Shown piece after piece: positions 37,607-64,000 of a stretch of 64,000 nucleotides of DNA. The stretch is from positions 43,385-107,384 of the forward strand of contig CABWZI010000005.1 of NCBI GenBank assembly GCA_902509905.1, read 5' to 3'. The stretch is from an uncultured Gammaproteobacteria bacterium. Its GTDB lineage: Bacteria > Pseudomonadota > Gammaproteobacteria > PS1 > Pseudothioglobaceae. Under the pieces are notes generated by a model. The model had not been told where the DNA came from. It was given only the letters and a program-made list of their open reading frames with translations, and searched no databases. The position numbers were made by a program, and so were the translations under genes. Within the stretch, counting starts at the first letter, position 1. Each line of letters starts with the position of its first letter.

Positions 37607-37631
37607 ATAGAACTATCCTGATACAACCTGC

Positions 37632-38270: not shown

Positions 38271-38296
38271 TCTCAATCTCCAAAAAATTCCATGAA

Positions 38297-38302: not shown

Positions 38303-38366
38303 CGTGATAAATTCGGGTTAAGAAACCCTCAAATTAGTTAAAATTTTAAATAGAAAAATTCTATCT

Positions 38367-38684: not shown

Positions 38685-38744
38685 TAAAGAGTTTCAAAAT
38701 TGATTATACCCATTTCTGATTTAGTACAATCCAGTTGATGAAAG

Positions 38745-39530
38745 TTATTTGCCTTTCCATTTAGGGGATCTTTTTTCTGAAAAAGCAATTGGCCCTTCCT
38801 TTGCATCCTCAGAATGAAGCATTTTCTGATACGCTTCAATTTCTCCTGATCGCATCAATTCGTAGGCTTCCTCTAAATCCATGATTTCAGTTGATCTTAT
38901 GACAGACTTTATGGCTGCTAAAGAGAGTGGGGCTGACTTTGAAATCTGAAGAGCCCACTCAAGCGACTGATTAATTAAATCATCTTGGGAACAAATTCTA
39001 TTAACAAGGCCGTAATGCTTTGCCTCCTCAACACCAATCCTTCGACCCGTCATAAGCATATCCATAGCAACTGATTTAGGCAGTCGACGAGGAAGTCTCA
39101 ATACCCCGCCGCTATCTGGAATAATTCCTAAAGTAGCTTCAGGTACAAAAAATTCTGCATTACTTGAAGCAATGATGAGGTCTGCAGCAAGTGCCAATTC
39201 AAACCCACCACCTACTGCTAATCCATTGACAGCAGCAATGACAGGTTTATTGAGATCCCATAACTCTGTTAGGCCTGCAAAACCACCAGGACCAAAGTCA
39301 GCATCAACTGCTTCCCCCTCAGATGCTGCCTTTAAGTCCCAGCCCCCACAAAAGAAACGATCTCCAGCTCCAGTAATGATTGCCACCCTAAGATTATTGT
39401 CATCTCTAAATTTTATAAATGCATCTCCAAGCTCATGACTTGTTTTTGCATCAATTGCATTGGCTTTTGGACGATTCAAGGTAATTAAAATTACTTCTCC
39501 ATGAACCTCATAATTAACAGCATCTTTCAT
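38745..39530 (-). CDS. caiD: Carnitinyl-CoA dehydratase/crotonobetainyl-CoA hydratase (CaiD-like)
   Basis: This 261-residue crotonase-fold protein matches E. coli CaiD nearly segment by segment as I recall it: [71 protein letters not shown] and the C-terminal [17 protein letters not shown]. Glutamates E111 ([12 protein letters not shown]) and E131 (VPEATLGI) occupy the two catalytic positions. CaiD hydrates crotonobetainyl-CoA to carnitinyl-CoA. It heads the end of a four-gene minus-strand set with acyl-CoA synthetase, acyl-CoA dehydrogenase and thioesterase genes, consistent with quaternary-amine acyl-CoA chemistry. Confidence 0.82.
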
Positions 39531-39545
39531 AATTACCCCAATAAA

Positions 39546-41603
39546 TTAATTTGAGTTAAGTCTAATAAGTGTATCAGCAGCAGCAACTCCATTGGTCTCT
39601 TTTAATACTAATAGTGGATTGATATCCAACTCCTCAACTTCATTTTGACTGATTAATTCAATGACCGAAGCGACTGAATCTATTACTGCTTCGATGTCCC
39701 CTTTTGGTTTGCCCCTGAAGCCCTCGAGTAGCTTGTAAACCTTTAATTTTGATAAAGATTGATGTATATCTGCTCTAGTAGCAGGCAAAATTAACACTGA
39801 ACTGTCTTCTAGAAGCTCAACAAATACACCGCCACTTCCAATTACGATGTGTTTGCCAAAAGTAGGGTCATAGTCCATACCTATAATGAGCTCACAAACT
39901 GATTTTTCTATCATTTTTTCAATAAGAAGCTCTGAACTGATAATGAATAAATCTGCACATGCCTCTTTCAGCATTTTTGTATTTTTAATATTCAGCCTAA
40001 CTCCATTTAATTCAGTCTTATGAGCTAATTCTGCCCCTGACACTTTAAGAGTCACTGGGAAGCCAATATCTTCAGAAGCTTTTGTAGCTTCATTGAAATT
40101 ATTAACCAGAAATCCTTTTGGAATAGCGACACCATGCTTGTTTAAAAGTAGCTTGCCTTCATATTCTGTTAATTGTGTTTTGGTTTTACTTTCTGAGTTA
40201 ATGCTCAAAATTTTTAACTCTGGACTTGTGTTGCGTGAAAATGAGCGCCCAATTTTATATGAGTGATTGAGGGCTTTCAAACACACATCCAAGCCAACCA
40301 TAGGCGCAATTCCCAAACTCAAACACTTCTCAATAATTCTTTTTGGCATACAATCTGCCATAGATGCCAGTACTATTGCCTTTTCACCTGTCCCAGAGAG
40401 GGCATCTGAAAGTGCCGATAAAGTCGAGTCCCAGTCCTTGTGCTCTGATTGTTCAGTTTTAGGCCAATCCAACAGCAACATTGTGGCTGCAAATTGATCA
40501 CTAATCATTGCCCTAAAGCACTCTGAAGTTCTTTTTCTATCCCCCCAAATAAATGTATGATAGTCTAGAGGATTGTCGACCTCGACATAGTCATTTAGCG
40601 TTCGCTGAACTTTGGCCTTGTGTGATGAGGTGAGTGATGGAAAATAAATTTCTAAGCCATCAATTAAATCAGCCATCATACCTGCTTCTCCGCCTGAGCA
40701 GCTCATTGAAGCAACACCGTTATGCTTCATTACGCCCAATAGGCTGATCAGTTTAAGTGTTTCTAGAAACTCTGGAACTGTCTCAACTCTGGCTATACCC
40801 CGACGATCAAAAAAAGCACTATATAATTTATCTGAACCCGTTAATGAGCTGGTGTGGCTCAGAGCAATCTTAGCAGATGCATTTGTTTTTCCTGACTTAA
40901 TAGTAATGATTGGAACCTTCATTTTATGCGCTCTTTGAGCAGCAATATCAAATGACTCGATGTCAGAAATACCTTCGATATGTAGACCAATCGCATTGAC
41001 TCTTGAATCATCCAACATCGCATGGATAATGTCCGCAATATTTGTATTTGATTGATTACCAAGAGTAAACATATAAGCGATTGAAAGGCCAGAAGACTGC
41101 ATAGTCATGTTTAGACCTATATTTCCGCTTTGAGTTATGATTGCCACCCCTTCGGATACTGGGTCACACCCATGAACGTCTGGCCACAAAGCAACCCCAT
41201 CCAGACTATTGATAAATCCGTAACAATTTGGGCCAATGAGCGGCATTCCATTGGCAGCTTCAACCAATTGTTGATTTCGTATAAGACCTATATCTCCAAC
41301 CTCGCCAAACCCAGAAGCATACAAAACCGCGCCGCCGCTTCCCATAGACTCAAGATCAGATACAATTTCAATGGCAGTATCTGCATTAACCGCAATAAAT
41401 GTAGCATCAGGAGGTTCTGGCAAATCTTTGACATCTCTAAAACATTTGATGCCTTCAAGAGATTCAAGGGTTGGATGAACTGCCCATATTTCATGACTGT
41501 ATCCTAATTTGAGCGACTCTCTAATCGCAAAATTTGCACCTCGATTACCAACAACAGCGATTGACTTTGGGGAGATTAATCGATGCAAATTGCTTTTATT
41601 CAT
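39546..41603 (-). CDS. ADP-forming acyl-CoA synthetase, fused alpha-beta form
   Basis: This 685-residue protein has an N-terminal CoA-binding Rossmann domain (ISPKSIAVVGNRGAN), a succinyl-CoA-ligase-like middle domain with the likely phosphohistidine in KIALSHTSSLTGSD, and a C-terminal ATP-grasp domain (TEYEGKLLLNKHGVAIPKG, then DEELDINPLLV-like EELDINPLLVL). The ATG at 41603 is chosen because the longer frame would overlap the dehydrogenase gene. NDP-forming synthetases of this type activate acids to CoA thioesters at the cost of ATP to ADP. Here it could activate carnitine, crotonobetaine or a related acid in place of CaiC; that role is inferred. Confidence 0.85.
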   Translation of the reverse strand: MNKSNLHRLISPKSIAVVGNRGANFAIRESLKLGYSHEIWAVHPTLESLEGIKCFRDVKDLPEPPDATFIAVNADTAIEIVSDLESMGSGGAVLYASGFGEVGDIGLIRNQQLVEAANGMPLIGPNCYGFINSLDGVALWPDVHGCDPVSEGVAIITQSGNIGLNMTMQSSGLSIAYMFTLGNQSNTNIADIIHAMLDDSRVNAIGLHIEGISDIESFDIAAQRAHKMKVPIITIKSGKTNASAKIALSHTSSLTGSDKLYSAFFDRRGIARVETVPEFLETLKLISLLGVMKHNGVASMSCSGGEAGMMADLIDGLEIYFPSLTSSHKAKVQRTLNDYVEVDNPLDYHTFIWGDRKRTSECFRAMISDQFAATMLLLDWPKTEQSEHKDWDSTLSALSDALSGTGEKAIVLASMADCMPKRIIEKCLSLGIAPMVGLDVCLKALNHSYKIGRSFSRNTSPELKILSINSESKTKTQLTEYEGKLLLNKHGVAIPKGFLVNNFNEATKASEDIGFPVTLKVSGAELAHKTELNGVRLNIKNTKMLKEACADLFIISSELLIEKMIEKSVCELIIGMDYDPTFGKHIVIGSGGVFVELLEDSSVLILPATRADIHQSLSKLKVYKLLEGFRGKPKGDIEAVIDSVASVIELISQNEVEELDINPLLVLKETNGVAAADTLIRLNSN

Positions 41604-41610
41604 TTTGGAT

Positions 41611-42768
41611 TTATTCAAATGGTCTAAGCAATGATCTAGAAATAATATGCCTTTGAATCTCACTAGTTCCATCCCATATTCTTTCTACACGATGATCTCT
41701 CCAAATCCTCTCAAGGGGAAGCTCATCCATCAGCCCCATGCCGCCTAGGATTTGAATAGCCTCATCAGAGATCATTGCAAGCACTTCAGTTGCTTTAAGT
41801 TTTGCCATAGCAGCATCACTATTCGTCATCTGACCTTGTGAATCCCTCCATGCTGCTTTAAGAGTGAGTAATTCTGCAGCATTAAGCTCCATCGACATAT
41901 CAGCAAGTTTAAATGAAACTCCTTGAAATTTTCCTATCGTTTGACCAAATTGTTCACGAGTTGCAGCCCACTCCGTTGCGATCTGCAAAGCCCTTTCAGC
42001 TCTGCCTAGACACATCGCAGCAACAGACAATCGAGTTGCACCCAACCATTCATTAGCCACATCAAATCCATGGTCCACCTCACCTAAGACTTTTGATTCA
42101 TGTACTCGGCAATTATCAAAATTAAGTATGAAGTTATGATAACCTCTATGGGATACACTGTTATAACCCGGCTCAACTGAGAAACCGGGGGTCCCCTTAT
42201 CGACTAAAAAGCTTGTAATCTTTTTCTTCTCACCCCTTGGTGTTTGCTCTATTCCAGACGCTACAAATAATATGACATAGTCAGCCATATCAGCGTGACT
42301 AATGAAATGCTTGGAGCCATTAATTACAAAATACTCACCATCTCTCTCAGCTTTACACTTCATAGAGCGAACATCAGATCCAGCATTGGGTTCCGTCATC
42401 GCAAGACAGTCAACTTTGTCACCACGAATTGTTGGCAGCAGATACTCATCAACCTGTGATCCTTTACAAGCCAATAAAATATTGCTTGGCCTAGCTACAA
42501 TATACTGTAACCCAAAGTTTGCTTTTCCCAATTCTTTTTCTAGAAGGCATAAAGTAAGTGAGTCTAATCCACCTCCACCATACTTTTCAGGCATATTGCA
42601 TGCATAAAGTCCACTTTCTATAGATTTTTGTTTTATTTGCTCTACAACGGAATCTTCTATTTTATTATTCTTTTCAACCTCGTCCTCAAAAGGGTAAAGC
42701 TCTTTTTCTACAAAACTTTTGACAGATTCAATAATCATTTCTTGTTCACTTGTGAGTCCAAAATTCAT
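41611..42768 (-). CDS. Acyl-CoA dehydrogenase
   Basis: This 385-residue FAD-dependent dehydrogenase has the signatures CLAMTEPNAGSDVRSMK (about residues 116-132), EQFGQTIGKFQGVSFKLADM and the C-terminal QILGGMGLMDELPLERIWRD. The position of the catalytic glutamate in short-chain enzymes (YEGTSEI) reads WDGTSEIQR here, with aspartate D366. In this cluster it could oxidize gamma-butyrobetainyl-CoA to crotonobetainyl-CoA, like CaiA, but a general acyl-CoA substrate is equally possible. Confidence 0.87.
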   Translation of the reverse strand: MNFGLTSEQEMIIESVKSFVEKELYPFEDEVEKNNKIEDSVVEQIKQKSIESGLYACNMPEKYGGGGLDSLTLCLLEKELGKANFGLQYIVARPSNILLACKGSQVDEYLLPTIRGDKVDCLAMTEPNAGSDVRSMKCKAERDGEYFVINGSKHFISHADMADYVILFVASGIEQTPRGEKKKITSFLVDKGTPGFSVEPGYNSVSHRGYHNFILNFDNCRVHESKVLGEVDHGFDVANEWLGATRLSVAAMCLGRAERALQIATEWAATREQFGQTIGKFQGVSFKLADMSMELNAAELLTLKAAWRDSQGQMTNSDAAMAKLKATEVLAMISDEAIQILGGMGLMDELPLERIWRDHRVERIWDGTSEIQRHIISRSLLRPFE

Positions 42769-48811: not shown

Positions 48812-49393
48812 TCAAGCCTTCCAAATATGTTCAGCGAAATGCTTTCTACACATAGATTGATAACGATCATTACCTCCAATAACCACCTGGTCACCGTCTT
48901 CAATAACATTTCCATGCTCGTCAATCCGAACGACCATAGTTGCCTTACTACCACAGTGACAAATAGTTTTTAGCTCAATTAGATTATCTGCCCATGCCAG
49001 TAGATGCTGACTTCCAGGGAAAAGTTCGCCCCTAAAATCAGTTCTAATTCCATAGCAAAGCACAGGAATATTTAATTGATCAACAGCTTGAGCAAGTTGT
49101 TGAACCTGCTCTCTACTTAGAAATTGACTTTCATCAATTAATACGCAGTCTATTGAATTTTTATGATTTTGATTTGTTAAGATTTTAAATAAGTCATCAT
49201 CTTTATGAAAAAGATGTGCCTCCGCTTCAAGCCCAATTCTGGAAGTCACTTTTCCAACGCTATAGCGATTATCTATTGCAGCTGATAGAATAAAAGGCGT
49301 CATACCTCTCTCTTTGTAGTTGTATGCTGATTGAAGAAGGGAGGTTGATTTACCTGCATTCATTGCAGAATAATAAAAGTAAAGCTTAGCCAC
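48812..49393 (-). CDS. tdk: Thymidine kinase
   Basis: This 193-residue type II thymidine kinase has the P-loop [15 protein letters not shown] (about residues 7-21), VLIDESQFL and the C-terminal zinc sites (CHCG and CRKH). It salvages thymidine. The frame starts at a GTG. It sits beside a TauE/SafE gene without evident functional relation. Confidence 0.93.
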
Positions 49394-49526
49394 AATGCAA
49401 ACCTAAATTATTAATATTGTCATATTATAACCCTTGGGACTAATTAGAAATTTACATCATTTGGGCTCTCTGAGAATATGCTATTGAGGCCATCCAGAAT
49501 CGCATGAAGATTCGATGATGGATTTC

Positions 49527-50768
49527 TTATTGATTATTAATCCACTCTTTTAAAAGTGAAACTCCTTTGACTATTCTTGGACAGATTTGATTCAGGTTAT
49601 CAATAGAGGACTCGTCTTTCGAAATCAATCGGAGCGCATCCTCACCATTAAAATCTACAAATGCAATCCGAGAAAGTAATTTACCTTTTTCTAAACCAAA
49701 GTCAGAACCTGGGAGCATTGCAAACCCTACTTCATTGAGAATTGTTTGACAAAGTATTTTGTCATCATTAACTTTTCTAGAGATATTTAAAATATTAGAA
49801 AAGTCACAAATCATATAAAACCCACCTTGAGGTTTCTGGCAACTAATGCCTACAGAAGACAACTCTTGATAAACAAAATCTGCAATGGCATTTAAAATTA
49901 GTCTCGAATGATTTAAAAATACCGAGTGGTCTTCAGAGTAAGCTTTAATTGCTGCGAACTGAATAGGTGCACTAACTGCAGTATAAGTTTCACTTGCAAT
50001 TGCTCTAATACTATCCTTAATATAACTCAATTCTTTTGGAAATGTCAAAGTTCCTAACCTCCAACCTCCAGCACCACACCACTTGCTAAGCCCACTACTG
50101 ATAATTGTGTTTTCGGGGTAAAAATGCGTCAATGACTTATAATCTCCAGAGAAATCTAGTTCAGCATAAATCTCATCAGCAATAATAGTAACGTTGTGTT
50201 TTTTGGCAACTTTAGCGAACTCTTTAAGATCATCATGAGTTGTTCCAGAAGGATTATTTGGAGAATTTAAAATCAAAAGTTTGCTAACCGACTTTAATTT
50301 TTCACATGCAATGTCCAGACTTTTAGGGCTAAGATGCCAATTACTCTCGGCATTTGACTCGATCCAATGAACTTTTTTATGAATCATTTGAGCTTGTGGC
50401 TCATAAGATACCCAGCTTGGACTTGGAAGCAATAAATCACAATCCAATGCCATTTGAATTTGAAAAATTAATTCCTTTGAGCCTGGCCCAATAATAACAT
50501 TTTGAGGGTCATAAGAGTATTGATTATTACGGGTATGATATTTAGCAACCTCTTTCCTAAGAGCATATAGGCCGGATACATTGAGATAATCTTTCTGGTG
50601 AGCATGCTCCTTTAACTCATTCACAATTAACCTGGGAACTGGAAATGGTGACTGACCAAGCCCAAACTTATAAACCTCCTTGCCTTCGCTGATCAATTGC
50701 TGAGACAGCTCATTAATTGCAAGAGTAGCTGAAGTTTTTAAACTTTGAATATTTTTTTGTATTTTCAT
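49527..50768 (-). CDS. Class I/II aminotransferase (aspartate-aminotransferase-like)
   Basis: This 413-residue fold-type I PLP enzyme has LNVSGLYALRKEVAKYH, LNSPNNPSGTTH, IIADEIYAELDFSG and the PLP-lysine region ISSGLSKWCGAGGWRLG. Substrate could be aspartate, alanine or an aromatic amino acid. The N-terminal KTSATLAINELSQQLISEGK is like the AspC-type/aromatic Ia group. It lies alone; the next gene upstream is the TRAP permease 101 bases away. Confidence 0.85.
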   Translation of the reverse strand: MKIQKNIQSLKTSATLAINELSQQLISEGKEVYKFGLGQSPFPVPRLIVNELKEHAHQKDYLNVSGLYALRKEVAKYHTRNNQYSYDPQNVIIGPGSKELIFQIQMALDCDLLLPSPSWVSYEPQAQMIHKKVHWIESNAESNWHLSPKSLDIACEKLKSVSKLLILNSPNNPSGTTHDDLKEFAKVAKKHNVTIIADEIYAELDFSGDYKSLTHFYPENTIISSGLSKWCGAGGWRLGTLTFPKELSYIKDSIRAIASETYTAVSAPIQFAAIKAYSEDHSVFLNHSRLILNAIADFVYQELSSVGISCQKPQGGFYMICDFSNILNISRKVNDDKILCQTILNEVGFAMLPGSDFGLEKGKLLSRIAFVDFNGEDALRLISKDESSIDNLNQICPRIVKGVSLLKEWINNQ

Positions 50769-50869
50769 ACTAATTTTTGCAAACTACATACTTGTAATAT
50801 CAGAATACTAGAATAATAGAAATATATGTTTCTTTTTTAATAAAAAATTAATACTTTTGTATCTTTTTC

Positions 50870-53425
50870 CTATTGAACTCGAACTATTTCTCTCTTTCTT
50901 CTTAATTGGACCAAGCCAACCATTCCTATTAAAAAAATTGCTGGTATATAAACAATTTGTTTAGGCATGGTCTCCCTCTCTTTAAGAACTGAAGTGATAA
51001 TCCAGCCACTATCGACTCCTGCAACTTTTATGGATTCAACCTGTTTATTTATTGCTCGACTATTTGAAATTCCCGGGAGCACCATTGCTACCTCCATATC
51101 TCCAAATAAATCGTCTATTTGAAGCCCCGTGTTATTTACTCTCTCTCTGCCTGTCTGTCCATCAGCCAATGGCAATAAAAATGTGTAACTTCTCACAACA
51201 CCTTCAATTGTCTCACCTTCAACAACAAAACGGATTGGTTCACCTTCACTCATAGTGTCAGCAACTTTAAACAACTCTTGACCAGAAATGTTTTCATAAG
51301 GTGGGTCCACTTTATCCCAAAAATAACCTGGCCTGAAAAACATAAATGCGACAATCAGCATCAATACAGTTTCCCATAGACGATTTTTAACAAGCCAATA
51401 GCCCTGAGTAGCCGCAGCAAAAAGGAGGATTGCAATAACTGATGAGGTAACAACTGATATAAAACTAATTACACTGTCAATACCAATCATGAGTAACTGA
51501 GTATTAAAAATAAATATAAAAGGGAGTACAGCTGTTCTCATGTCGTAAATGAAGCCCTGAATACCGGTTCTTATCGGATCACCTTTTGAAATCGCTGCTG
51601 CTGCATAGGCAGCAAGACCCACTGGTGGCGTATCATCAGCCAAAATACCAAAATAAAAAACAAACATATGAGCCGCAATTAGAGGGATAGCCACGTTGTT
51701 CGCTGCACCTAAGCTCATGATGACAGGAGCCATTAGACTTGAGACAACTATATAGTTAGCTGTTGTTGGCAGGCCCATTCCTAAAATAAGACTTATCATT
51801 GCAGTAAAAAGCAATATTAAAAATAAGTTCCCTGCAGCAATAAATTCAACCCATCCAATTATTAATTGTCCAACACCTGTGAGCGTTACCGTACCAACAA
51901 TAATACCTGCTGCAGTAGTAGCAACTCCAACACCAATCATATTTCTAGCTCCATTGACAAAACCAAGCTTTAGATCTGTAAAACTTGAAACTAGATGAGC
52001 TGCAAGATTAGATTGGCGTCGAAATATTGCCAAGATACACTTCTGAGTTAGGACTATAAACATCATGAACATGGTTGCCCAGTAGACTGAAGTTTCGGGA
52101 GAAAACCGCTCAACAGTCAGGAGCCAAATCAACAAAATAACTGGAAGTAAAAAATGAAGTCCTGCCTTGACCGTCTTACCAATTTCAGGGATTTCGCTTA
52201 TTTCTCCTGCAGGTAGATCTGGCATTCTTGAAACAGAGTACAAGAGTCCGAGATAACTAAAAACCATAATTAATGCAACAATCAATGTAGTTGCTTCTCC
52301 GGCTATTATCTTAATGAATTCAAAGAGAGGTGGAAGCACCCAGACAAGAGTACCTAGAACAATCAGAACGCTCGAAATGCCAATTAATCTATCCACTTTA
52401 TTGAGCTTGTTGGTTCTTTTAAGTCCCTCCATTCCAGACTTTAAAGCCTCTAAGTGAACAATATAGATAAGTGCAATGTATGAAATGACAGCAGGTAAGA
52501 ATGCATGCTTGATTACTTCAATGTAAGAAACACCGACATACTCAACCATTAGAAATGCTGCAGTGCCCATAATTGGAGGTGTTAGTTGGCCATTGGTAGA
52601 AGATGCAACTTCAATTGCTCCAGCTTTCTCAGAGGGAAAGCCAACTCGTTTCATTAATGGAATTGTAAATGTACCAGTCGTTACAACATTAGCAATGGAT
52701 GATCCTGAAATCATACCGGTCATCGCTGAAGAAACTACTGCAGCCTTTGCAGGCCCGCCTCGATAATGCCCTGTCAGTGCATAGGCTACTCTTATGAAGT
52801 AATTACCAGCGCCAGCCCTCTCAAGAAGTGCGCCAAAAAGAACAAACAAGAAAACCATGCTTGCCGAGACTCCAACGGCAATTCCAAATGCTCCTTCTGT
52901 TGTAATCCACATGTGGGATACAATTTTATTTAAAGAGGCGCCCCCATAACCTCCAGCTCCAAGGAACGCATAGGTCAAAGCAATAATTGCTACAACCATT
53001 AACGGAGGACCTAATGATCTTCTAGTGGCTTCTAAGAGAAGAAGAAGTCCTATAACACTCAAAAATAAATCAGCTGAGTTTGGAACACCCAAACGCATTT
53101 CAAAAGCTCTAGAATCCCAAACCTGGTTATAAACCAAATACAAACAAGATGCGACTATGAGAAACCCCATAATCCAATCAGTCCATGGAATGACGACTCT
53201 AGATGACCTTTTAAGAGCTGGATAAGTCAGAAAAGCTAAAAAGCCTGCAAAAGAGACATGAACTCTCTTGACTACATCTGCATTCATCCATGGTGTTATT
53301 TCAAGAACTAGAGGCGATGAGACGTAAAGCTGGAAGACTGACCAAGCCAAAGCAACATAGATCAATATGTTTCTAACTAGTGCACTTTTTGGGTTTCTGT
53401 TTCCCGTTTCTAGATCAACTTCCAT
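50870..53425 (-). CDS. TAXI-type TRAP transporter permease, fused small and large membrane subunits
   Basis: This 851-residue fused permease has the small 4-helix DctQ-like part at the N-terminus and the DctM-like 12-helix part after about residue 110. GGPAKAAVVSSAMTGMISGSSIANVVTTG and VGLAAYAAAAISKGDP are typical of TAXI-TRAP permeases, as is the C-terminal soluble extension (about residues 695-851) ending in basic residues. It imports an organic acid with a sodium gradient. The binding protein gene lies directly upstream, separated by a terminator-like hairpin. Confidence 0.88.
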   Translation of the reverse strand: MEVDLETGNRNPKSALVRNILIYVALAWSVFQLYVSSPLVLEITPWMNADVVKRVHVSFAGFLAFLTYPALKRSSRVVIPWTDWIMGFLIVASCLYLVYNQVWDSRAFEMRLGVPNSADLFLSVIGLLLLLEATRRSLGPPLMVVAIIALTYAFLGAGGYGGASLNKIVSHMWITTEGAFGIAVGVSASMVFLFVLFGALLERAGAGNYFIRVAYALTGHYRGGPAKAAVVSSAMTGMISGSSIANVVTTGTFTIPLMKRVGFPSEKAGAIEVASSTNGQLTPPIMGTAAFLMVEYVGVSYIEVIKHAFLPAVISYIALIYIVHLEALKSGMEGLKRTNKLNKVDRLIGISSVLIVLGTLVWVLPPLFEFIKIIAGEATTLIVALIMVFSYLGLLYSVSRMPDLPAGEISEIPEIGKTVKAGLHFLLPVILLIWLLTVERFSPETSVYWATMFMMFIVLTQKCILAIFRRQSNLAAHLVSSFTDLKLGFVNGARNMIGVGVATTAAGIIVGTVTLTGVGQLIIGWVEFIAAGNLFLILLFTAMISLILGMGLPTTANYIVVSSLMAPVIMSLGAANNVAIPLIAAHMFVFYFGILADDTPPVGLAAYAAAAISKGDPIRTGIQGFIYDMRTAVLPFIFIFNTQLLMIGIDSVISFISVVTSSVIAILLFAAATQGYWLVKNRLWETVLMLIVAFMFFRPGYFWDKVDPPYENISGQELFKVADTMSEGEPIRFVVEGETIEGVVRSYTFLLPLADGQTGRERVNNTGLQIDDLFGDMEVAMVLPGISNSRAINKQVESIKVAGVDSGWIITSVLKERETMPKQIVYIPAIFLIGMVGLVQLRRKREIVRVQ

Positions 53426-53438
53426 AAGGATATTGTAT

Positions 53439-53464
53439 AAAAAAAAAGGATGGCAACGCCATCC
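53439..53464 (-). terminator. Intrinsic terminator/attenuator between TAXI binding protein and permease
   Basis: Read on the minus strand, a GC-rich 7-base-pair stem (GGATGGC with GCCATCC, positions 53464-53448, loop of three) is followed by nine T residues. It lies about 20 bases after the binding-protein stop and before the permease start. It should cut down permease transcription. Confidence 0.8.
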
Positions 53465-53484
53465 TTTTTCTTGTTAATTGAATC

Positions 53485-54486
53485 TTACCACTTCATTAGA
53501 CCAACTTCTTTGTAATATCTTGCAGCACCATCATGAAGAGGCGCAGACAAACCATCAGAAATCATTTCTTCTTTCTTCAGATTAGCAAACGCAGGGTGTA
53601 GCTTTTTAAAGCTATCAAAGTTGTCAAAAACGCCCTTAACAATGCTGTGAATTACATGCTCAGAAGTCGCAGTTGAAGAGACAACTGTTGCGCCAACACC
53701 GAATGTGACAGTGTCATCAGGATTTCCATTGTACATGCCACCTGGAATGGTTGCAGTGCGATAGAAGTCATTATTAGCGACTAGTCCATCAACCGCGGCA
53801 CCAGTCACATTTACTAAGACACTGTCGCATGAAGTTGTAGCCTCTTTGATTGATCCTGAAGGGTGTCCAACTGTAAAGACCATCGCATCAATCTTGTTGT
53901 CGCATAGTGCTTTTGACTGCTCAGATGACTTAAGTTCAGAAGCAAGAGCAAAGGTTGATTTATCCCAACCAAGTGCATCCATTAAGACTTCCATAGTTCC
54001 TCTTTGACCAGAGCCTGGGTTTCCTATATTGACTCTCTTGCCTTTTAGGTCTTCAAGATTGCGAATGCCTGAATCAGCTCTTGCTACAACCGTGAAGGGC
54101 TCAGGGTGAACAGAAAATACAGCTCTCAAATCTGTAAATGCGCCTGCATCAGCAAACTTACTAGTTCCATTATAAGCATGGTACTGCCAGTCTGACTGTG
54201 CAACACCTAAATCTAGCTCTCCAGCACGAATAGTATTGATGTTATAGACTGAGCCACCTGTAGATTCAACTGTACAGCGAACAAGATGTTTCGCCTTGTC
54301 CTTATTGACTAGCCTACAAATTGATCCACCCGTCGGGTAGTAGACTCCTGTTACGCCTCCAGTACCAATTGTGACAAATGTCTCAACAGGTTTAACAACA
54401 TCACCAGCTATTACCGGAGTTGCAACCGTTATACTGCTCAATACAGCAGCAGCAAATGCGCCACTCAAAAAATTAATTTTTTTCAT
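53485..54486 (-). CDS. TAXI-family TRAP transporter solute-binding protein
   Basis: This 333-residue periplasmic protein has a signal peptide ([20 protein letters not shown], cleavage near VIAG) and the TAXI pattern [72 protein letters not shown] and [19 protein letters not shown]. Ligands of the family include glutamate and other organic acids. Its position beside the RpiR regulator and DMSP-lyase-like locus suggests a substrate linked to that pathway. Confidence 0.9.
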
Positions 54487-54544
54487 TTCATCTCCTTATT
54501 TTATTAGACAAAAAATTTAAGTCCAAATTAGTTATACCATATTT

Positions 54545-54617
54545 AATACAATTGTTTCAATATTTCTATATATAAAACACAAGTGTTTTCATCTTGTTCA
54601 AGTTTATTTAACAAGAT
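54545..54617. promoter_or_regulatory. Candidate operators between the TAXI gene and the RpiR regulator
   Basis: The divergent region holds a perfect 16-base inverted repeat AAAACAC-AA-GTGTTTT at 54574-54589 and a second inverted repeat ATCTTGTT (54591-54598) with AACAAGAT (54610-54617). A related sequence ACAATTGTTTC starts at 54548, 31 bases before ACAAGTGTTTTC at 54579. Phased palindromes between a regulator and its target are expected operator sites; binding by the RpiR protein is inferred. Confidence 0.5.
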
Positions 54618-54637
54618 TTATAGTAGAATATTCTTCT

Positions 54638-55519
54638 ATGGATTCAAATAACTATTCAACCACTGAAATCAATCAAAAACTATCAAATGGATACGTTGGT
54701 TTTTCTAAAGAAGTCAAAAAAGCAGCCAAATATGTAATGGATAATCCTGCAGAGATTCCTTTACATTCAATACGAACTGTTGCTTCAAACGCAGATGTTA
54801 ATCCATCAACTATGGTCCGTCTTATAACTATACTAGGGTTCAAACGTTATGATGAGTTTAAGACGATTTACAAAAAAGCTGCGTCACAAATGCCAGTTTC
54901 CAACTTTACATCTCATGCAAAAGATCTCCTAAATGAAAAACATAATAATCCTTTTTCTGATGCAGAAGCAAATGTATATAAGTCTCTATCTGGAGCCTTC
55001 AATGATAAGACTTATAAGGCCATTGACTCTTCAGTTGATAAATTAATGAAAGCAGAAACTGTATACATTCTAGGAATGAGAAGCAGCTTCTCTATGGCAT
55101 TTTATCTGCATTATCTTTTGCATTTTATTCTGCCAAAAACAAAATTGATTCGTGGTCAAGAAGGAATGCTGCTTAGTGAAATTTCTCAAATAAATGCAAA
55201 TGATGTTGTGATTGTTTTTGGAGCATCACCCTTGTCACTTGAAACAACAAAGGCATTAGACAAAATCAAAAAGAGGGAGGCTTTCATCATTGTGGCAACT
55301 GATATGTACACCTCTCAAGCTGCATCGAATGCAGATATCATAGTCGCACTTGGTAATGAGACTCTAAATTTCCTTCCCAGCATTCTGCCATATGCAGCAT
55401 TCTCAGAAATTCTCGTTTCACAGATTATGACGAAAGGTGGCAAAAAAATGCTAGCCCGAATCAAAAAATTTGAAGACGAGCTTTCTGAAATGGGCGCATA
55501 CATTCGACCTAGTCAATAA
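54638..55519 (+). CDS. MurR/RpiR-family transcriptional regulator
   Basis: This 293-residue regulator has an N-terminal HTH_6 domain (about residues 10-85, with IRTVASNADVNPSTMVRLITILGF) and a C-terminal SIS domain (about 130-260, with VYILGMRSSFSMAF and VVIVFGASPLSLETT). SIS domains sense phosphosugars or related ligands. It is divergent from the TAXI-TRAP genes and convergent with the cupin gene, placing it as the likely controller of this cluster. The ligand need not be a sugar. Confidence 0.9.
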   Translation: MDSNNYSTTEINQKLSNGYVGFSKEVKKAAKYVMDNPAEIPLHSIRTVASNADVNPSTMVRLITILGFKRYDEFKTIYKKAASQMPVSNFTSHAKDLLNEKHNNPFSDAEANVYKSLSGAFNDKTYKAIDSSVDKLMKAETVYILGMRSSFSMAFYLHYLLHFILPKTKLIRGQEGMLLSEISQINANDVVIVFGASPLSLETTKALDKIKKREAFIIVATDMYTSQAASNADIIVALGNETLNFLPSILPYAAFSEILVSQIMTKGGKKMLARIKKFEDELSEMGAYIRPSQ

Positions 55520-55541
55520 TTATAAGTAATGAATCATTCCA

Positions 55542-56231
55542 TTATTTAAAGAGGCTTTGCTCAATTTCGTCCCAATCATCAAAATGGAGAACTTGACATG
55601 GCGAATTAACATTTTCAAGCCAAACAAATACGGATATAAAAGGTTGTTCATAAACTCGAGCAGCATGTCGCTCTCTAGGTGCGTTCCAAATAAATGAACC
55701 AGCTGGATAGTCTTTCCATTCTCCAAATTCAAATCGCCAACCTGATTTATCTGAAAGGTTAAGATATAACTCTGGTGCATCATGCTTATGATCACGATAG
55801 AGTGTTCGTGGTCCAAGCATAAAGACGCCCAGGAGAAAGTCATCACTTTGATATCCACAAGAGTTAGGGCCAATTAACAGAGTATGGAGGTTGCAATTTT
55901 TGTAACCTGGCCCCAGATTTGCCCCAGGTTGATAATATTGTGAATTATCTTCTAACCAAACAAGGTCGTCCTTTGCTGCATAAAGGCAACTTGCAATCTC
56001 ATTAAGCTGTTGGGCATTTATTTCAGAAATTGCTTTATTCAAAACCCGCTCATGTCTAGTTCCTTTTGGTTTAATATCAACAAGTTGTTGATCAGATAAG
56101 TCAATTTCTTCTAATTTTCTCAATGTCATTTCAACTCCTGACATATCTGCTCGATGCTTATCAAGATAACTAATAATGGATTTAATTAGGGCTTTGATTC
56201 TAATCTGTCTATCTGTCATTATTTGTTTCAT
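55542..56231 (-). CDS. Cupin protein with DMSP-lyase (DddL/DddQ-type) active-site pattern
   Basis: This 229-residue protein has a helical N-terminal half (about residues 1-100) and a C-terminal cupin. Within the cupin, Y145, H148, H150, E154 and Y156 are followed by H189. As I recall the DddQ-type DMSP lyase site, it uses Tyr, His, His, Glu, Tyr and His at matching spacing (3, 2, 4, 2, then about 32). LGVFMLGPRTLYRDHKH, WRFEFGEWKDYPAGSFIWN and PRERHA are further similarities to DddL/DddQ. Known enzymes split dimethylsulfoniopropionate into dimethylsulfide and acrylate. Many cupin-DLL homologues have other or unknown activity, so the substrate is not settled. The start overlaps the upstream ligase gene end by up to 23 bases; a second ATG at 56219 is possible. 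Confidence 0.65.
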   Translation of the reverse strand: MKQIMTDRQIRIKALIKSIISYLDKHRADMSGVEMTLRKLEEIDLSDQQLVDIKPKGTRHERVLNKAISEINAQQLNEIASCLYAAKDDLVWLEDNSQYYQPGANLGPGYKNCNLHTLLIGPNSCGYQSDDFLLGVFMLGPRTLYRDHKHDAPELYLNLSDKSGWRFEFGEWKDYPAGSFIWNAPRERHAARVYEQPFISVFVWLENVNSPCQVLHFDDWDEIEQSLFK

Positions 56232-57795
56232 TAAGAGTTAAAACATATTTGCGCATCACCTTTTTATCAAGCTTACCAACACTTGTTTTGGGGAGTTGAT
56301 CGACAAAAAAAATGTTATCGGGAATTGCCCATTTAGATATTTCTCCTAATTCAAAATGTTCTCGAAATTTTCTCATTAAATCTTTTCTAACAAGATCTGG
56401 ATTTGCATTATTCAAAAGTTTTACAACTAAAACGGCTCTTTCGCCCCACTTTTCATTAGGGATACCAATAGCTGCGACTTCTTCAATGCTTGAACATGAC
56501 GATGCAATATTTTCAAGTGTAAGCGATGAGATCCATTCACCACCAGTTTTGATAACATCTTTGAGGCGATCAGTAACTTGCAATGATCCATTTTCACGAA
56601 TATATCCAACATCCCCAGTATGTAGATAACTATTTCTCCAAAGATCTTTAGATGCCTTTGGGTTGTCCATATATCCATTAGTCAGCCAGGGGGCCTTTAC
56701 AACAATTTCACCTGTTGTTAATCCATCATGAGGAACATCTTGCATATTTGGAGATACAACACGCAGGTCCACCAGTGGGCCTGGAAACCCAGTTTGGGAT
56801 TGAGCATCTGGATCAGTACTAGATAAATCTGCAACTGTTAAAAATGGGCAGGTTTCTGACATGCCATAAGCAGCATGCAATCTTATGCCAAATTTAGAAG
56901 CACGACTCTGCAAACTCTTTGATAGGGCAGATCCTCCAATTATTACTTTCCATCGACTCAAATTTACTTTTTTGCTATTCGGATGATCTAATAACATTGA
57001 TAAAACAGTAGGAACACAATGTGAAAATGTCACTGCTTCAGAATCGATTAGTTGCAATATTGTCTCAGGGTCGTAACGATTAGGATAAACCTGACGAAGT
57101 CCCAACATTGTAGCAGCATATGGAAAGCCCCATCCATGAACATGGAATAAGGGTGTGAGTGGCATATAGACATCATCACGATGTAATCCAGAGTCTCCTG
57201 AAAATGAACCAAACCCAGCTAATAAGCCTAATGTGTGAAGAACTAACTGACGATGTGAATAAGTGACTCCTTTTGGATCACCTGTTGTGCCAGTTGTATA
57301 AAACAATGTCGCAGTTCTGTTTTCATCAAATTCTGGAAAATTAAAACTAGTTGATGAGCTGCTTATCCAATCTTCATACTTTTCACCATGACCAATCGGG
57401 ATGATTATTATTTCGCGCTCAAATTCTAACTTAAGTTCTTCAATTAGGGGCATAAAGTCCTGATGAACAATTATTAGATCAGGCTGGGCATGATTAATCG
57501 TATAAAGAACTTGCTTAGGTGATAAACGTACATTGATTGTATGCAAAACTGCCCCCATCATGGGTACAGCAAAAAAATACTCAAGATAGCGGTGAGTATC
57601 CCAATCCATAACGCCAACGCGCATTTTTTCAGAAATACCCATAGCAGTTAGAGAATTGGCAAGCCTTCCAAGACGTCCAGTGAACTCCTGATAATTTAGC
57701 CTTACATTTGGATTACTTACAATTTCTTGCGAAAAAGACATAACGCTAGATTTTGTGAGAATTTGCTTAATTAAAAGGGGATACTCAGAATCCAT
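56209..57795 (-). CDS. Acyl-CoA ligase (AMP-forming), AlkK/DmdB-like
   Basis: This 528-residue ANL-superfamily enzyme has the P-loop FYTTGTTGDPKGVTYSHR (about residues 168-185), LTPLFHVHGWGFPY, YGMSETCPFLT and the C-terminal signature LQVTDRLKDVIKTGGEWIS, with the catalytic lysine in PKTSVGKLDKK. The HVHGWG/GEWIS pattern places it with medium-chain ligases that include DmdB, which activates methylmercaptopropionate, and AlkK. Because it overlaps the DMSP-lyase-like cupin, acrylate, 3-hydroxypropionate or methylmercaptopropionate are possible substrates. Confidence 0.85.
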   Translation of the reverse strand: MDSEYPLLIKQILTKSSVMSFSQEIVSNPNVRLNYQEFTGRLGRLANSLTAMGISEKMRVGVMDWDTHRYLEYFFAVPMMGAVLHTINVRLSPKQVLYTINHAQPDLIIVHQDFMPLIEELKLEFEREIIIIPIGHGEKYEDWISSSSTSFNFPEFDENRTATLFYTTGTTGDPKGVTYSHRQLVLHTLGLLAGFGSFSGDSGLHRDDVYMPLTPLFHVHGWGFPYAATMLGLRQVYPNRYDPETILQLIDSEAVTFSHCVPTVLSMLLDHPNSKKVNLSRWKVIIGGSALSKSLQSRASKFGIRLHAAYGMSETCPFLTVADLSSTDPDAQSQTGFPGPLVDLRVVSPNMQDVPHDGLTTGEIVVKAPWLTNGYMDNPKASKDLWRNSYLHTGDVGYIRENGSLQVTDRLKDVIKTGGEWISSLTLENIASSCSSIEEVAAIGIPNEKWGERAVLVVKLLNNANPDLVRKDLMRKFREHFELGEISKWAIPDNIFFVDQLPKTSVGKLDKKVMRKYVLTLNETNNDR

Positions 57796-57839
57796 ATTCG
57801 TTATAGATACTCAAACTATAAGTCAGAAAACCAAATCTA

Positions 57840-59486
57840 TTAGTTTTCTTTCAGCTCTCTTCTTAGAACCTTTCCAACATTAGTTTTTGGAATCTCTTTG
57901 ATAAATTCTATATGCTTTGGAACTTTATAAGCGGTTAACTTTTCCCTGCAAAAACTTATAATTTCATCCTCAGTTACAGTTTGCTCATCATGAAGGACAA
58001 CAAAAACTTTTACGAGCTCTTGAGAACCTTCACCCTCTATTCCGACACACCCACATTCAAGAACAGAAGGGTGTTCATTTACAACCGCTTCAACTTCATT
58101 TGGAAAAACGTTAAAACCTGAGACAATAATCATGTCCTTCTTTCGATCAACAATAAAAATATTACCTGTTTCATCAATTCGAGCAATATCACCGGTCATA
58201 AACCAGTTATTCTCATCAAGACCAGTGACTTCAGACTTCCAATAACCACTCATAACCTGTGGTCCTCTGACACAAAGCTCTCCAACAGCATTCGTTTCTG
58301 AAAGTGCTTTACCGTCTTCATCCCTAATTTCAATTTCAGTATAAGCTGCAGGCAGACCTACGGAGCCTGTAAATTCAGTTTGCTTGTAGTCATTCACACT
58401 AACCAGTGGTGATGTTTCAGTGAGCCCATATGCCTGCCAGATTACTGATTTAGTAAGTGCTGCCCATCTTTTTGCAGTTGTGTCAAGGGCTGCCATACCG
58501 CCACTTAAGGACATTAGTAAGTTACTAAAATCTAACTCTTTAAAGCCATCATAATTCAATAGTGCTTCATAAAGCGTATTCACACCAGAGATCATATGAA
58601 ACTTATGTTTCTTCATAATTGAAACGAAAGTCTTTAAGTCCCTAGGATTAGTAATGAGTACACTTCTTCCACCAATATGGAACAGCATGAAGTTATGAAC
58701 AGTTAGAGCAAAGATATGATACAAAGGTAATGGACAGATGGCTATTCTCTGTTCTTTTCTTGAGTCATCATACATTTTAGGATCGATTGTAAAGAAAGCC
58801 TGGATGATGTTAGCAAGAATATTTCGGTGAGTTAGGATCGCGCCTTTTGAAACGCCTGTAGTTCCCCCGGTATACTGAAGGAAGGCTGTGCTCTCTATAG
58901 GAATATCTATGGATGCAGCCTTTGAACCTTCATTCTCCTTCAAAACCTCAAGGAACATTTTGGCACCATCAATTTGGTACTTGGGCACTAACTTTTTGAC
59001 TTTTCTAGTAACCAAATTAATAATCTTTCCCTTAAAGCCGAGAAGGTCTCCAACAGTTGTTACTAAAACTTTTTCCACACTCGCTAGGTCAGACTTAGCG
59101 GCGACATTAGCAACGCCCTCCCAAACCAATAATAATTTTGCTTCACTATCTCTAAGGACATGTTCAAGTTCTCTTTGAGTATAGAGGGGGTTAATGTTCA
59201 CTACGACGATACCTGCCTTCAACGCTCCATAAACTATGACAGGGTATACCAGCATGTTAGGCATCATGACAGCAACTCTATCACCAACTTCAAAGTTACT
59301 ACTAAGCCAAGAGGCGAATGAATCAACCTGAGCCGATAAGTCGTTGTAGGACATCTCAACCCCAAAACTTTCAAACGCTATTTTTTCTTGATGCTCATTA
59401 CAGCAGTTATCAAAAAACTCTACCAGGTTGCCATGTTCTTTAAAAAAATCTGTCTCTTCAAGTTTATTGGGTATGTTTAATGCCAT
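57840..59486 (-). CDS. fadD: Long-chain fatty-acid-CoA ligase (FadD-like)
   Basis: This 548-residue AMP-forming ligase has LQYTGGTTGVSKGAILTHRN (about residues 207-226), YGLTETSPLVS, the signature GNIFIVDRKKDMIIVSGFNV and the catalytic lysine in PKTNVGKVLRRE. These are typical of FadD. It activates fatty acids for the thiolase and FadN-like enzyme encoded upstream on the same strand. It starts 19 bases after the DUF2889 gene. Confidence 0.88.
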   Translation of the reverse strand: MALNIPNKLEETDFFKEHGNLVEFFDNCCNEHQEKIAFESFGVEMSYNDLSAQVDSFASWLSSNFEVGDRVAVMMPNMLVYPVIVYGALKAGIVVVNINPLYTQRELEHVLRDSEAKLLLVWEGVANVAAKSDLASVEKVLVTTVGDLLGFKGKIINLVTRKVKKLVPKYQIDGAKMFLEVLKENEGSKAASIDIPIESTAFLQYTGGTTGVSKGAILTHRNILANIIQAFFTIDPKMYDDSRKEQRIAICPLPLYHIFALTVHNFMLFHIGGRSVLITNPRDLKTFVSIMKKHKFHMISGVNTLYEALLNYDGFKELDFSNLLMSLSGGMAALDTTAKRWAALTKSVIWQAYGLTETSPLVSVNDYKQTEFTGSVGLPAAYTEIEIRDEDGKALSETNAVGELCVRGPQVMSGYWKSEVTGLDENNWFMTGDIARIDETGNIFIVDRKKDMIIVSGFNVFPNEVEAVVNEHPSVLECGCVGIEGEGSQELVKVFVVLHDEQTVTEDEIISFCREKLTAYKVPKHIEFIKEIPKTNVGKVLRRELKEN

Positions 59487-61073: not shown

Positions 61074-62264
61074 TTAGCATCTTTTAATGATCCCAGCAGC
61101 CCCCATCCCAGTTCCAATACACATGGTTACCATTCCATAATCAATCTTTTCTCTTTGCATTGCAGAAACAAGTGTTGCAATTCTAATAGCTCCAGTAGCA
61201 CCCAGAGGATGCCCAAGGGCTATAGCACCTCCAAGCGGGTTGACCTTTTCTGGATCAAGTTTTAACTCCTGAATAACAGCCAGAGATTGCGCAGCAAATG
61301 CCTCATTAAGCTCAATCCATCCAATATCATCAAGAGAAAGGTCTAAGGAGTCAAGAACTTTAGGCACCGCCTTGACTGGGCCAATACCCATTATTTCTGC
61401 AGGAACTCCGGCAACCGAAAAGCCCAGAAACTCAGCCTTAGGGGTTAAATTATATTTCTCAACTGCCTCTTCACTAGCGACAAGAACAGCGGCGGCGGCA
61501 TCAGACATTTGAGAGCTGTTTCCTGCTGTCACTGAACCATCTTGAGCAAAAACAGTTCTCAGTTTTGCTAAAACTTCCAAACTTGTATCTTCTCTAGGTC
61601 CTTCATCTTTAGAAACAAGATTAGTGTTTTTTATATATTCATTTGATTCAACTGAGTAACTATCCTCAACAGTTGAAATGGGTACAATTTCATTTTCAAA
61701 TAAACCGCTATTGTTTGCTTTTATTGCTTTTTGGTGACTGTTGAAGGCGAACTGATCTTGTGCCTCTCGGGAGACCCCATATTTCTGCACCACTTTCTCT
61801 GCAGTAAGTCCCATCCCATAAGCAATAGAAATATTCTCGTCTGACAAAATTTTAGGATTCATTGACGGCTTAAAGCCAGTCATCGGAACACTACTCATAC
61901 TTTCGACGCCTGCAGCTATGACCAGGTCAGATGACCCAGACTTAATGAGGTCAGCAGCGTTAGAGACGGACTGAAGACCTGAAGAACAGAATCTATTGAG
62001 CGTATATGCTGGAGTCGAATCTGGAAGTCCAGCAAGCAAAGTTGCAATTCGTGCAATATTTAAGCCTTGAGGTCCTTCTGGCATCGCACATCCAACAATA
62101 ATATCGTCAATACTATTGTTTATTTTTTCAATTGGATCTGACGCCTTTAGAACACTTTGTATGGCATGGACCAATAAGTCGTCTGCCCTAGTCTTAGAGA
62201 GCAAACCTCTAGCTTTTCCAACTGGAGTTCTTTTTGCATCAATAATATAAGCTTTTCTCATCAT
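61074..62264 (-). CDS. Acetyl-CoA C-acyltransferase (thiolase, FadA/FadI-like)
   Basis: This 396-residue thiolase has the nucleophile C93 in NRFCSSGLQSV, the substrate-loop IELNEAFAAQSLAV, GGAIALGHPLGATGA and the C-terminal catalytic cysteine in TMCIGTGMGAAG. It releases acetyl-CoA in the last step of beta-oxidation. It begins 9 bases after the FadN-like gene. Confidence 0.93.
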   Translation of the reverse strand: MMRKAYIIDAKRTPVGKARGLLSKTRADDLLVHAIQSVLKASDPIEKINNSIDDIIVGCAMPEGPQGLNIARIATLLAGLPDSTPAYTLNRFCSSGLQSVSNAADLIKSGSSDLVIAAGVESMSSVPMTGFKPSMNPKILSDENISIAYGMGLTAEKVVQKYGVSREAQDQFAFNSHQKAIKANNSGLFENEIVPISTVEDSYSVESNEYIKNTNLVSKDEGPREDTSLEVLAKLRTVFAQDGSVTAGNSSQMSDAAAAVLVASEEAVEKYNLTPKAEFLGFSVAGVPAEIMGIGPVKAVPKVLDSLDLSLDDIGWIELNEAFAAQSLAVIQELKLDPEKVNPLGGAIALGHPLGATGAIRIATLVSAMQREKIDYGMVTMCIGTGMGAAGIIKRC

Positions 62265-62273: not shown

Positions 62274-64000
62274 TTAATTGCGAAGGGGTTTACTATTTCG
62301 AAGCATAAACTCAATTCTGTCTTGAGTTTTCTGTGTTCCCAAAAGCTCAACAAAATATTTCTGTTCAAGATCTAGCAGCATTTTTGAATTGACAACTGTG
62401 TTCTCCTCAACTAGGGAGCCTGTCATCACTTTGGCCAATGACGATATGCAATATTTGTCATGTTCGGACATAAAGTTACCCTCAAATAGGTTAGCAACCT
62501 GCGCCATAATATTTGCATATCCAGCCTTACCCACTACTTTGAATGTGTCATCAAGTGGGGACCTGAATCCTGACTCAAGCATTGCTAAAGCTTGCTGTTT
62601 AGCAACATAAAGTAGCTCATGGGGATTAGCAATAATGACATCTTCATTCTTTAGGTAACCCATTTCTTTAGCTTCCAAAGCACTAGCTGAGACTTTTGCC
62701 ATTGCAATTTGTTCAAAATGTTTAGACAACAAAGGAAAAATATCATCAGACTCTTTGTTTAAATAAGCTCTTAAGGCCATCTCCTTACTGCCACAGCCAG
62801 CAGGAATGCCTCCAATTCCTACTTCTACAAGTCCAATGAAAGAGTTCATAGAGGCAACCACTCTATTGCAGTGAAGTAAAAGTTCACAGCCTCCTCCAAG
62901 CGCTAGACCATCAACAGCGGCAATGGTCAATATTTTTCCATGCTTTAGCCGCATTAATAAATCTTGAAGCATGCGGATAGTTTTCTTAATGGAGTAGAGC
63001 TTCCCAAGTTTAGGCAGCTCAGGATGCATCACCTCAAAAGCCTTCTTTTTTGCTTTGGATGTCAAGCCCGGATCCTTTTCAAGTAGGCCAAGCTTAATTG
63101 CTGAAATAACCTCATAAAGGTTAGCACCTGCACAAAAATGTTCCTGCTCTTGTCTGATTACAAGGGCATGAAAACCATTGCTTTCAAGATAATCTAGGCA
63201 TTCAGGTAGCTCAGTTAAAACACTTGAACTCAATACGTTCATTTTTGTTTTGAAAGAGACGCTAGCAACTCCACTTCCGATATCAATCAATTTAGTGGAT
63301 TCACCATCTTTCAAGACCTCTAATTGACTTTTCCTCTCTCCACTCAGAAGGGCCTTATTTAATTGCCTTTCGTAGACCGGATGAGAAGACCTTGGAATAA
63401 AATGACTATTATTTGGATTAAATGCACCCTCATCAGAATAGACGAAAGCTTGCTCCATGACCCATGCTGGCAGGGCTTGATTTGATAGAGTCTTGCCATC
63501 CTTAATGTCTTGATTTAGCAACTCTCTTACCTCAGACCAACCAGTCATCTGGACTTGTTCAAAGATTCCTTTTTGCCAAGCAAACCCTGACTTTAATGCC
63601 AAATCTACGCATCTTGCAGTTTCAGCAACATGCTCCAGATGATAAGCAGTGTAATGAAATACATCGCGATGAACCGACCACAAAAACTGAGCCTGCGGGT
63701 CTTCACATTTAGAGAGTTCGAGAAGAGCATTTTCTATGGTTTTGCTATCTTTTATAATTTTCTTTACTTTAGAACTAATAGTTTTATCAGAAAGCCTATA
63801 TTCTCCATCTTTAGGATCAAAGACAAATATGTCTTTGCCCACTTTTTCATAGATTCCCTTTCGAGTCTTGCTTCCTAAAGATCCCTTCTCAATTAACGCC
63901 TGAATCCAATCTGGAATTTTAAATAATTCAATCCAAGGATCATCTTGCGCATTTTCATAAATATTTTTTACTACGTTTGCCATTACATCAAGGCCAACAA
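62274..64000 (-). CDS. FadN-like multifunctional enzyme: 3-hydroxyacyl-CoA dehydrogenase C-terminal part plus enoyl-CoA hydratase (partial)
   Basis: The frame is open to the window end, and codons before the first internal ATG read VGLDV, so translation continues upstream from outside the window. The visible 570-plus residues start in the second 3-hydroxyacyl-CoA dehydrogenase domain (LDVMANVVKNIYEN, GSLGSKTRKGIYE), then a linker domain, then an enoyl-CoA hydratase (about residues 240-460) with HFCAGANLYE, DGLALGGGCELLLHCNRV and the second catalytic-glutamate strand GLVEVGIGGIPAG. This domain order (dehydrogenase first, hydratase last) is that of FadN, not FadB. It supplies hydratase and dehydrogenase steps for the adjacent thiolase. 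Confidence 0.87.
   Translation of the reverse strand, partial: VGLDVMANVVKNIYENAQDDPWIELFKIPDWIQALIEKGSLGSKTRKGIYEKVGKDIFVFDPKDGEYRLSDKTISSKVKKIIKDSKTIENALLELSKCEDPQAQFLWSVHRDVFHYTAYHLEHVAETARCVDLALKSGFAWQKGIFEQVQMTGWSEVRELLNQDIKDGKTLSNQALPAWVMEQAFVYSDEGAFNPNNSHFIPRSSHPVYERQLNKALLSGERKSQLEVLKDGESTKLIDIGSGVASVSFKTKMNVLSSSVLTELPECLDYLESNGFHALVIRQEQEHFCAGANLYEVISAIKLGLLEKDPGLTSKAKKKAFEVMHPELPKLGKLYSIKKTIRMLQDLLMRLKHGKILTIAAVDGLALGGGCELLLHCNRVVASMNSFIGLVEVGIGGIPAGCGSKEMALRAYLNKESDDIFPLLSKHFEQIAMAKVSASALEAKEMGYLKNEDVIIANPHELLYVAKQQALAMLESGFRSPLDDTFKVVGKAGYANIMAQVANLFEGNFMSEHDKYCISSLAKVMTGSLVEENTVVNSKMLLDLEQKYFVELLGTQKTQDRIEFMLRNSKPLRN

Follow-up and report, generated by a model that had tools for sequence, protein, structure and literature searches.

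A candidate two-gene cassette pairing a DMSP-lyase-type cupin with an acyl-CoA ligase beside fatty-acid breakdown genes in an uncultured gammaproteobacterium

Here we describe a two-gene cassette in which a cupin of the dimethylsulfoniopropionate (DMSP) lyase family is paired with an acyl-coenzyme A (CoA) ligase, next to genes for fatty-acid breakdown. The cassette lies in a 64,000-nucleotide stretch of DNA from an uncultured, likely marine gammaproteobacterium (G000:C5:43385-107384, closing at the contig end at 107384), which we call the window. Its GC content is 37.7 %, and the source genome amounts to 1.5 Mb at 89.6 % completeness. Judging from sequence, we see about an even chance that the cassette provides a lyase and an activation step for a DMSP-like algal compound and feeds the neighbouring fatty-acid breakdown genes. 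In the open-licence literature that we searched, which did not cover the DddU paper, we met no account of this known lyase family being consistently paired with a CoA ligase and with genes of beta-oxidation. If the host belongs to SAR86, passages of PMC11582366 on that group mention dmdA for some genera but no DMSP lyase.

The genes of the cassette and of the adjoining fad block are given below; the window genome is G000 and its genus relatives are labelled G0xx.

55542..56231, minus strand: cupin of a DMSP-lyase-like family, 229 aa (PF16867, residue match to 4la2, AlphaFold2 model)
56209..57795, minus strand: AMP-forming acyl-CoA ligase, 528 aa (PF00501 and PF13193, PRK06187)
57840..59486, minus strand: FadD-like acyl-CoA ligase that closes the native fad block, present with and without the cassette
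61074..62264, minus strand: FadA-like thiolase within the native fad block (profile matches)
62274..63983, minus strand: FadB-like hydroxyacyl-CoA dehydrogenase/enoyl-CoA hydratase (PF00378; NCBIfam match of the G003 copy)

The cupin and ligase genes overlap by 23 bp. The FadD-like gene stands 44 bp upstream of the pair on the same strand, a spacing that suggests joint transcription, and the cassette may be co-transcribed with the fad genes. From its low-coordinate end the fad block encodes the FadD-like ligase, a DUF2889 protein, an NMO-like protein, the thiolase and the FadB-like protein, the last of which is cut by the contig end in the window and full-length (814 aa) in relatives G003 and G021. 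Promoter-like and terminator-like matches between 53300 and 60200 show no excess over shuffled sequence (18 against 20.2 and 4 against 4.5, respectively), and no Rfam family scored above its gathering score in the 64-kb window. A preliminary description of this DNA had already reported the overlap, the position of the cupin gene and, within 53485..57795, the ligase and two neighbours treated below (a TAXI solute-binding protein and an RpiR-type regulator); all of these are borne out.

Family, active site and predicted fold all point to a cupin of DMSP-lyase type. Its Pfam PF16867 (DMSP_lyase) score of 76.9 bits clears the cut-off of 27. In a pairwise alignment with the DddQ structure 4la2, its residues Y145, H148, H150, E154, Y156 and H189 correspond to DddQ Y120, H123, H125, E129, Y131 and H163, all six of them required for catalysis according to PMC4437653. 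Across the family members aligned, which were picked from the listed search matches, none of the six residues varies (32 of 32). In the AlphaFold2 model a helical N-terminal half, a feature of DddQ-type enzymes, accompanies the cupin barrel, and the predicted fold aligns over nearly the whole length, from residue 7-10 to 213, with solved DddQ proteins from three sources, among them Ruegeria lacuscaerulensis and R. pomeroyi (4la2, 5jso, 5cu1, 4b29). Both the residue match and the helical half had been put forward in the preliminary description. Compared with two genus relatives, the nonsynonymous divergence (dN) of the cupin gene is 0.069 and 0.039 and the synonymous divergence (dS) 0.42 and 0.64, a low dN/dS which indicates that the gene is kept by selection.

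The ligase scores 559.4 bits against NCBIfam PRK06187 (cut-off 476), has an acyl-acyl carrier protein synthetase, 8hsy, as its nearest solved structure (547 bits) and shares about 72 % identity with the ligases that accompany the Roseobacter cupins described below. With 6ihk, which we take to be the 3-methylmercaptopropionyl-CoA ligase DmdB (its entry says AMP-binding domain protein), it shares the AMP-forming ligase superfamily but a score of just 309 bits, and the DmdB-type model PRK07008 gives 387.6 bits, under its cut-off of 822. The earlier assignment as an acyl-CoA ligase with an overlapping gene stands; its suggested likeness to DmdB is not borne out by this model.

The pairing of the two genes is conserved in two lineages. 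Within the genus, the ligase (E 1e-100) and a close cupin are present in the same four of 29 genomes. In a first protein search, 203 of 289 candidates matched at E up to 1e-3, and the 120 matches listed are 60-97 % identical; species named there are all alphaproteobacteria (Roseobacters and one Labrenzia), most rows carrying no species name. We assembled 13 distinct Roseobacter loci (three plasmids and ten further genomes) whose cupins are 55-69 % identical to that of the window. The locus L130 is the L016 replicon (167,282 bases, same content) and was counted once; the cupins of L015, L016 and L130, missed by open reading frame picking, were taken from annotation and tblastn. An intact ligase gene lies just upstream of the cupin at 11 of the 13 loci, FadB follows just downstream at 12 (one cut by a contig end) and thiolase comes next at 11. 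A LysR regulator is near at 12 loci, an OpuAC-type ATP-binding cassette (ABC) importer at nine and an SBP_5 protein at three. The cassette also occurs on a Roseobacter plasmid typed conjugative.

The beta-oxidation genes of the two lineages are only distantly alike (FadB about 29 %, thiolase 37-39 % identical), so the shared piece is the ligase-cupin pair, set beside different beta-oxidation genes in each lineage. The window thiolase is likely the counterpart of that in the Roseobacter operon. Among the matches listed, the window cupin belongs to a group of its own, 54-97 % identical to it, and in this, in its low identity to DddQ (16-17 %) and in standing nearly always beside a CoA ligase where DNA was read, it differs from DddQ. 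A cupin tree of 48 rows places the 38 Roseobacter-type rows in a single fork (81/100) and five of the six gamma-type rows in a second (95/83), with P0003 unresolved between them; the gamma-type label reflects the genome of origin for the rows from the window, G003 and G028, and identity alone for P0002-P0004. The pair may have spread by horizontal transfer; long outgroup branches leave the root of the tree, and with it the direction of any transfer, unsure.

In the route that we propose, the cupin would use a bound metal and Tyr156 to pull the alpha proton from a DMSP-type carboxylate and eliminate its onium group. The ligase would then form the CoA thioester either of the resulting unsaturated acid or of the uncleaved betaine, and this thioester would pass to the hydratase, dehydrogenase and thiolase of beta-oxidation. 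The first candidate substrate would be DMSP, giving dimethyl sulfide (DMS) and acrylate. Alpha-proton abstraction with beta-elimination of DMS has been proposed for DddQ (PMC7221440, citing Li 2014), and the intact DddQ-type site of the window cupin makes the same chemistry likely.

Several points weigh against this proposal. Besides the low identity between the model and solved DddQ, only one of five AlphaFold2 models of the cupin was confident, and phmmer gave E=0.12 to 4la2. To 5cu1 the phmmer value is 3.1e-5; a close-family profile gives 9e-7 to 5cu1 and 0.2 to 4la2, a wider-set profile 1.7e-20 and 2.1e-17. Membership of PF16867 does not by itself make a DMSP lyase, since the family occurs in other settings and the same genome holds a copy without the catalytic Tyr. 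In this second cupin (L004:1426-2016, minus strand, G000:C6) Arg and Phe replace one His and that Tyr. Distant PF16867 proteins in L071, L073 and L074, 29-30 % identical to the window cupin, stand in other gene settings, which suggests other substrates within the family. The pairing also has exceptions: a Roseobacter (G821) shows no ligase on a 6.7-kb contig that ends soon after the cupin; in G916 (L131) the ligase is truncated, its last 156 residues alone being found, about 1.2 kb before the cupin; and the more distant cupins of G886 and G760, which were not counted among the 13 loci, are 42-44 % identical to P0031 (a Neptunicoccus cionae protein, see below) and have no such ligase, FadB or thiolase beside them. 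AcuI stayed below its cut-off of 297 bits in nine of nine genomes of the genus, with a best score of 88.5; several of these genomes are incomplete, and two (G028 and G006) are single contigs. A BCCT importer was found in none of eight genus genomes. Acrylate would have to undergo CoA ligation and hydration or reduction, and thiolase has no role for a C3 acid; FadB and thiolase as partners fit a longer acyl chain than acrylate.

Two further observations concern these other PF16867 cupins. The second cupin of the genome adjoins a 392-aa protein resembling a Rieske oxygenase by eye, and the PF16867 proteins in L071 and L073 lie near ABC importer genes, which were recognised by their resemblance to the importer of Phaeobacter.

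A narrower form of the proposed route, overlapping with it, is quite possible, if somewhat short of an even chance: the cupin would be DddU or its direct orthologue and the ligase would activate acrylate. DddU is a DMSP lyase of the cupin type, reportedly first found in Amylibacter cionae H-12. The protein P0031, 68 % identical to the window cupin, comes from Neptunicoccus cionae, the taxonomy name returned for Amylibacter cionae, and would be linked to DddU through this species. Cloned dddU gives DMSP and dimethylsulfoxonium propionate (DMSOP) lyase activity, according to PMC10686828. However, N. cionae may hold other cupins, and thiolase and FadB stay unexplained if acrylate is the product. 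DddL is likewise a cupin lyase family (PMC10686828), compared here by family and gene setting. In Rhodobacter sphaeroides dddL stands in the arrangement acuR-acuI-dddL (PMC3017554), a setting that the window cupin does not share: AcuI is on no cupin locus examined (E 1e-10), in addition to its absence over cut-off from the genus genomes, and in five of five Roseobacter carriers tested it is found elsewhere in the genome. No protein named DddL or DddU appeared among the best 120 listed matches of each of two protein searches, nor did AcuI adjacency reveal one.

It is unlikely that the cupin eliminates a different leaving group, such as trimethylamine or hydroxide, from a beta-substituted acid of C4 or longer, with the enoate entering beta-oxidation at the enoyl-CoA stage. 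This would account for ligase, hydratase, dehydrogenase and thiolase without an acyl-CoA dehydrogenase. An OpuAC-type importer also stands beside the Roseobacter cupin, its binding protein scoring weakly on the choline model (44.1 bits, cut-off 379) and on the glycine-betaine model (39.5 bits, cut-off 215). Nevertheless, no abundant natural substrate comes to mind, and all six active-site residues are those of DMSP lyases.

A route from gonyol (5-dimethylsulfonio-3-hydroxypentanoate) appears distinctly improbable. On paper, the ligase would form gonyol-CoA, FadB would oxidise the 3-hydroxyl, thiolase would release acetyl-CoA and DMSP-CoA, and the cupin would remove DMS. Such chemistry would give every gene of the Roseobacter operon a job, again with no need of an acyl-CoA dehydrogenase, and a betaine-type importer is nearby at nine of the 13 Roseobacter loci. 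Marine bacteria use gonyol by unidentified pathways (PMC7221440), and a December 2025 paper calls its catabolism not known (PMC12911362). However, PMC7221440 also reports that four bacteria tested released no DMS from gonyol and argues that gonyol itself is not cleavable by the DMSP-lyase mechanism, and the FadB and thiolase of the window are general fad genes. Should the cupin act on the thioester, against the same long odds, the route would be a source of DMS uncounted by DMSP-lyase surveys.

For the lyase and activation route that we favour, import could come from elsewhere in the genome. OpuAC proteins are present in eight of eight genus genomes, including one in the window (33702-34718) with permease and ATPase; aligned parts of this binding protein, permease and ATPase are 28-29 %, 47 % and 49 % identical to the Phaeobacter importer. 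A betaine-type importer is therefore at hand without TAXI-TRAP. In the same region (33702-42768), this betaine/choline-type ABC importer and a short-chain dehydrogenase/reductase face genes for an enoyl-CoA hydratase, an acyl-CoA dehydrogenase and an ADP-forming acyl-CoA synthetase of 708 aa. The best solved match of the synthetase is 7cm9, titled DMSP lyase (E=1e-74, residues 24-704) and presumably DddX, ahead of 4-hydroxybutyrate-CoA ligase; the protein could be related to DddX or could make CoA thioesters of betaines.

The preliminary description had joined the cupin and ligase with a TAXI-TRAP importer and the RpiR regulator in a single unit. The further genes at issue, which form a separate cassette, are:

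54638..55519, plus strand: RpiR-type regulator (PF01418, HTH_6, and PF01380, SIS, over cut-off)
53485..54486, minus strand: TAXI solute-binding protein (TIGR02122, TRAP_TAXI, 351 bits, cut-off 84.35)
50870..53425, minus strand: fused TRAP permease with DUF3394 (TIGR02123, TRAP_fused, 635.9 bits, cut-off 320.65; PF11874)
49527..50768, minus strand: class I/II aminotransferase, travelling with TAXI-TRAP (PF00155)

From low to high coordinate, the order is thus aminotransferase (-), permease (-), TAXI protein (-), RpiR (+), cupin (-), acyl-CoA ligase (-) and fad block. The importer genes are what they were said to be, with the permease just outside the quoted range of 53485..57795. RpiR and the TAXI gene indeed diverge, across a gap of 151 bp, but RpiR and the cupin gene converge, with 22 bp between them, an orientation that fits control of the importer. 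A terminator-like hairpin with a 12-pair stem lies in the TAXI-permease gap (53443-53469, listed on the plus strand only) and is equally common in shuffles.

Comparison within the genus separates the two halves. The gene tk was found in 19 of the 29 genomes and its wide surroundings were read in 13; for the remaining six the reading was limited to tk itself, within some 1.5 kb, and ten genomes gave no tk. Around tk we scored TAXI-TRAP with aminotransferase, and ligase with cupin, as sets. The former is at the site in five of 13 (G000, G003, G011, G012, G013), three of them without ligase-cupin, and the latter in four, two of them without TAXI-TRAP. Both stand adjacent in G000 and G003. In G021 the pair is accompanied by a 57-residue RpiR remnant, an indication that one half can be lost without the other, and in G028 by an acetoacetate-CoA ligase whose gene overlaps the cupin gene. 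RpiR, TAXI-TRAP and aminotransferase occur without ligase-cupin in G011 and, with an acetoacetate-CoA ligase and no fad block upstream, in G012, so RpiR belongs to the TAXI-TRAP cassette; G013 has TAXI-TRAP, aminotransferase and acetoacetate-CoA ligase, RpiR not being seen. The aminotransferase follows the permease in G003, G011, G012 and G013. Acetoacetate-CoA ligase is alone in G025, G009 (as two reading frames) and G010, and joins a 495-aa gene in G004; G006 has a 465-aa gene, and in G007 fadD is directly followed by tk. The FadD-like gene keeps its place with and without the cassette.

The stretch from fadD to tk (window 48812-57840; L058-L060, L096-L104) is thus a variable cargo site, found empty or holding acetoacetate-CoA ligase, TAXI-TRAP, ligase-cupin or mixtures. 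Acetoacetate-CoA ligase, considered as a pathway partner from its overlap in G028, occupies the same site in six of nine read genomes without the cassette and is likely an independent resident.

The relatives of the window TAXI protein, permease, RpiR and aminotransferase are at none of the 13 Roseobacter loci (E 1e-5), and our narrow literature search found no TAXI-TRAP DMSP system described. A single DMSP-use locus of TAXI-TRAP, RpiR, cupin and ligase is therefore very improbable: its genes are adjacent in the window and G003, but the halves are found apart within the genus, RpiR converges on the cupin gene and only a remnant of it stands beside the pair in G021, so that the supposed unit is better seen as two cassettes meeting at a variable site. 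The TAXI-TRAP, RpiR and aminotransferase genes form a separate cassette, which likely imports a different compound, perhaps an oxo acid or amino acid.

If the lyase and activation proposal is right, an intact DMSP-lyase-type cupin would be present in scattered Roseobacters and in a gammaproteobacterium with a small genome and no AcuI found. That a CoA ligase, FadB and thiolase almost always accompany this cupin points to another substrate, or another route, than plain conversion of DMSP to acrylate. The locus also warns against reading neighbours, here TAXI-TRAP and RpiR, as members of a pathway.

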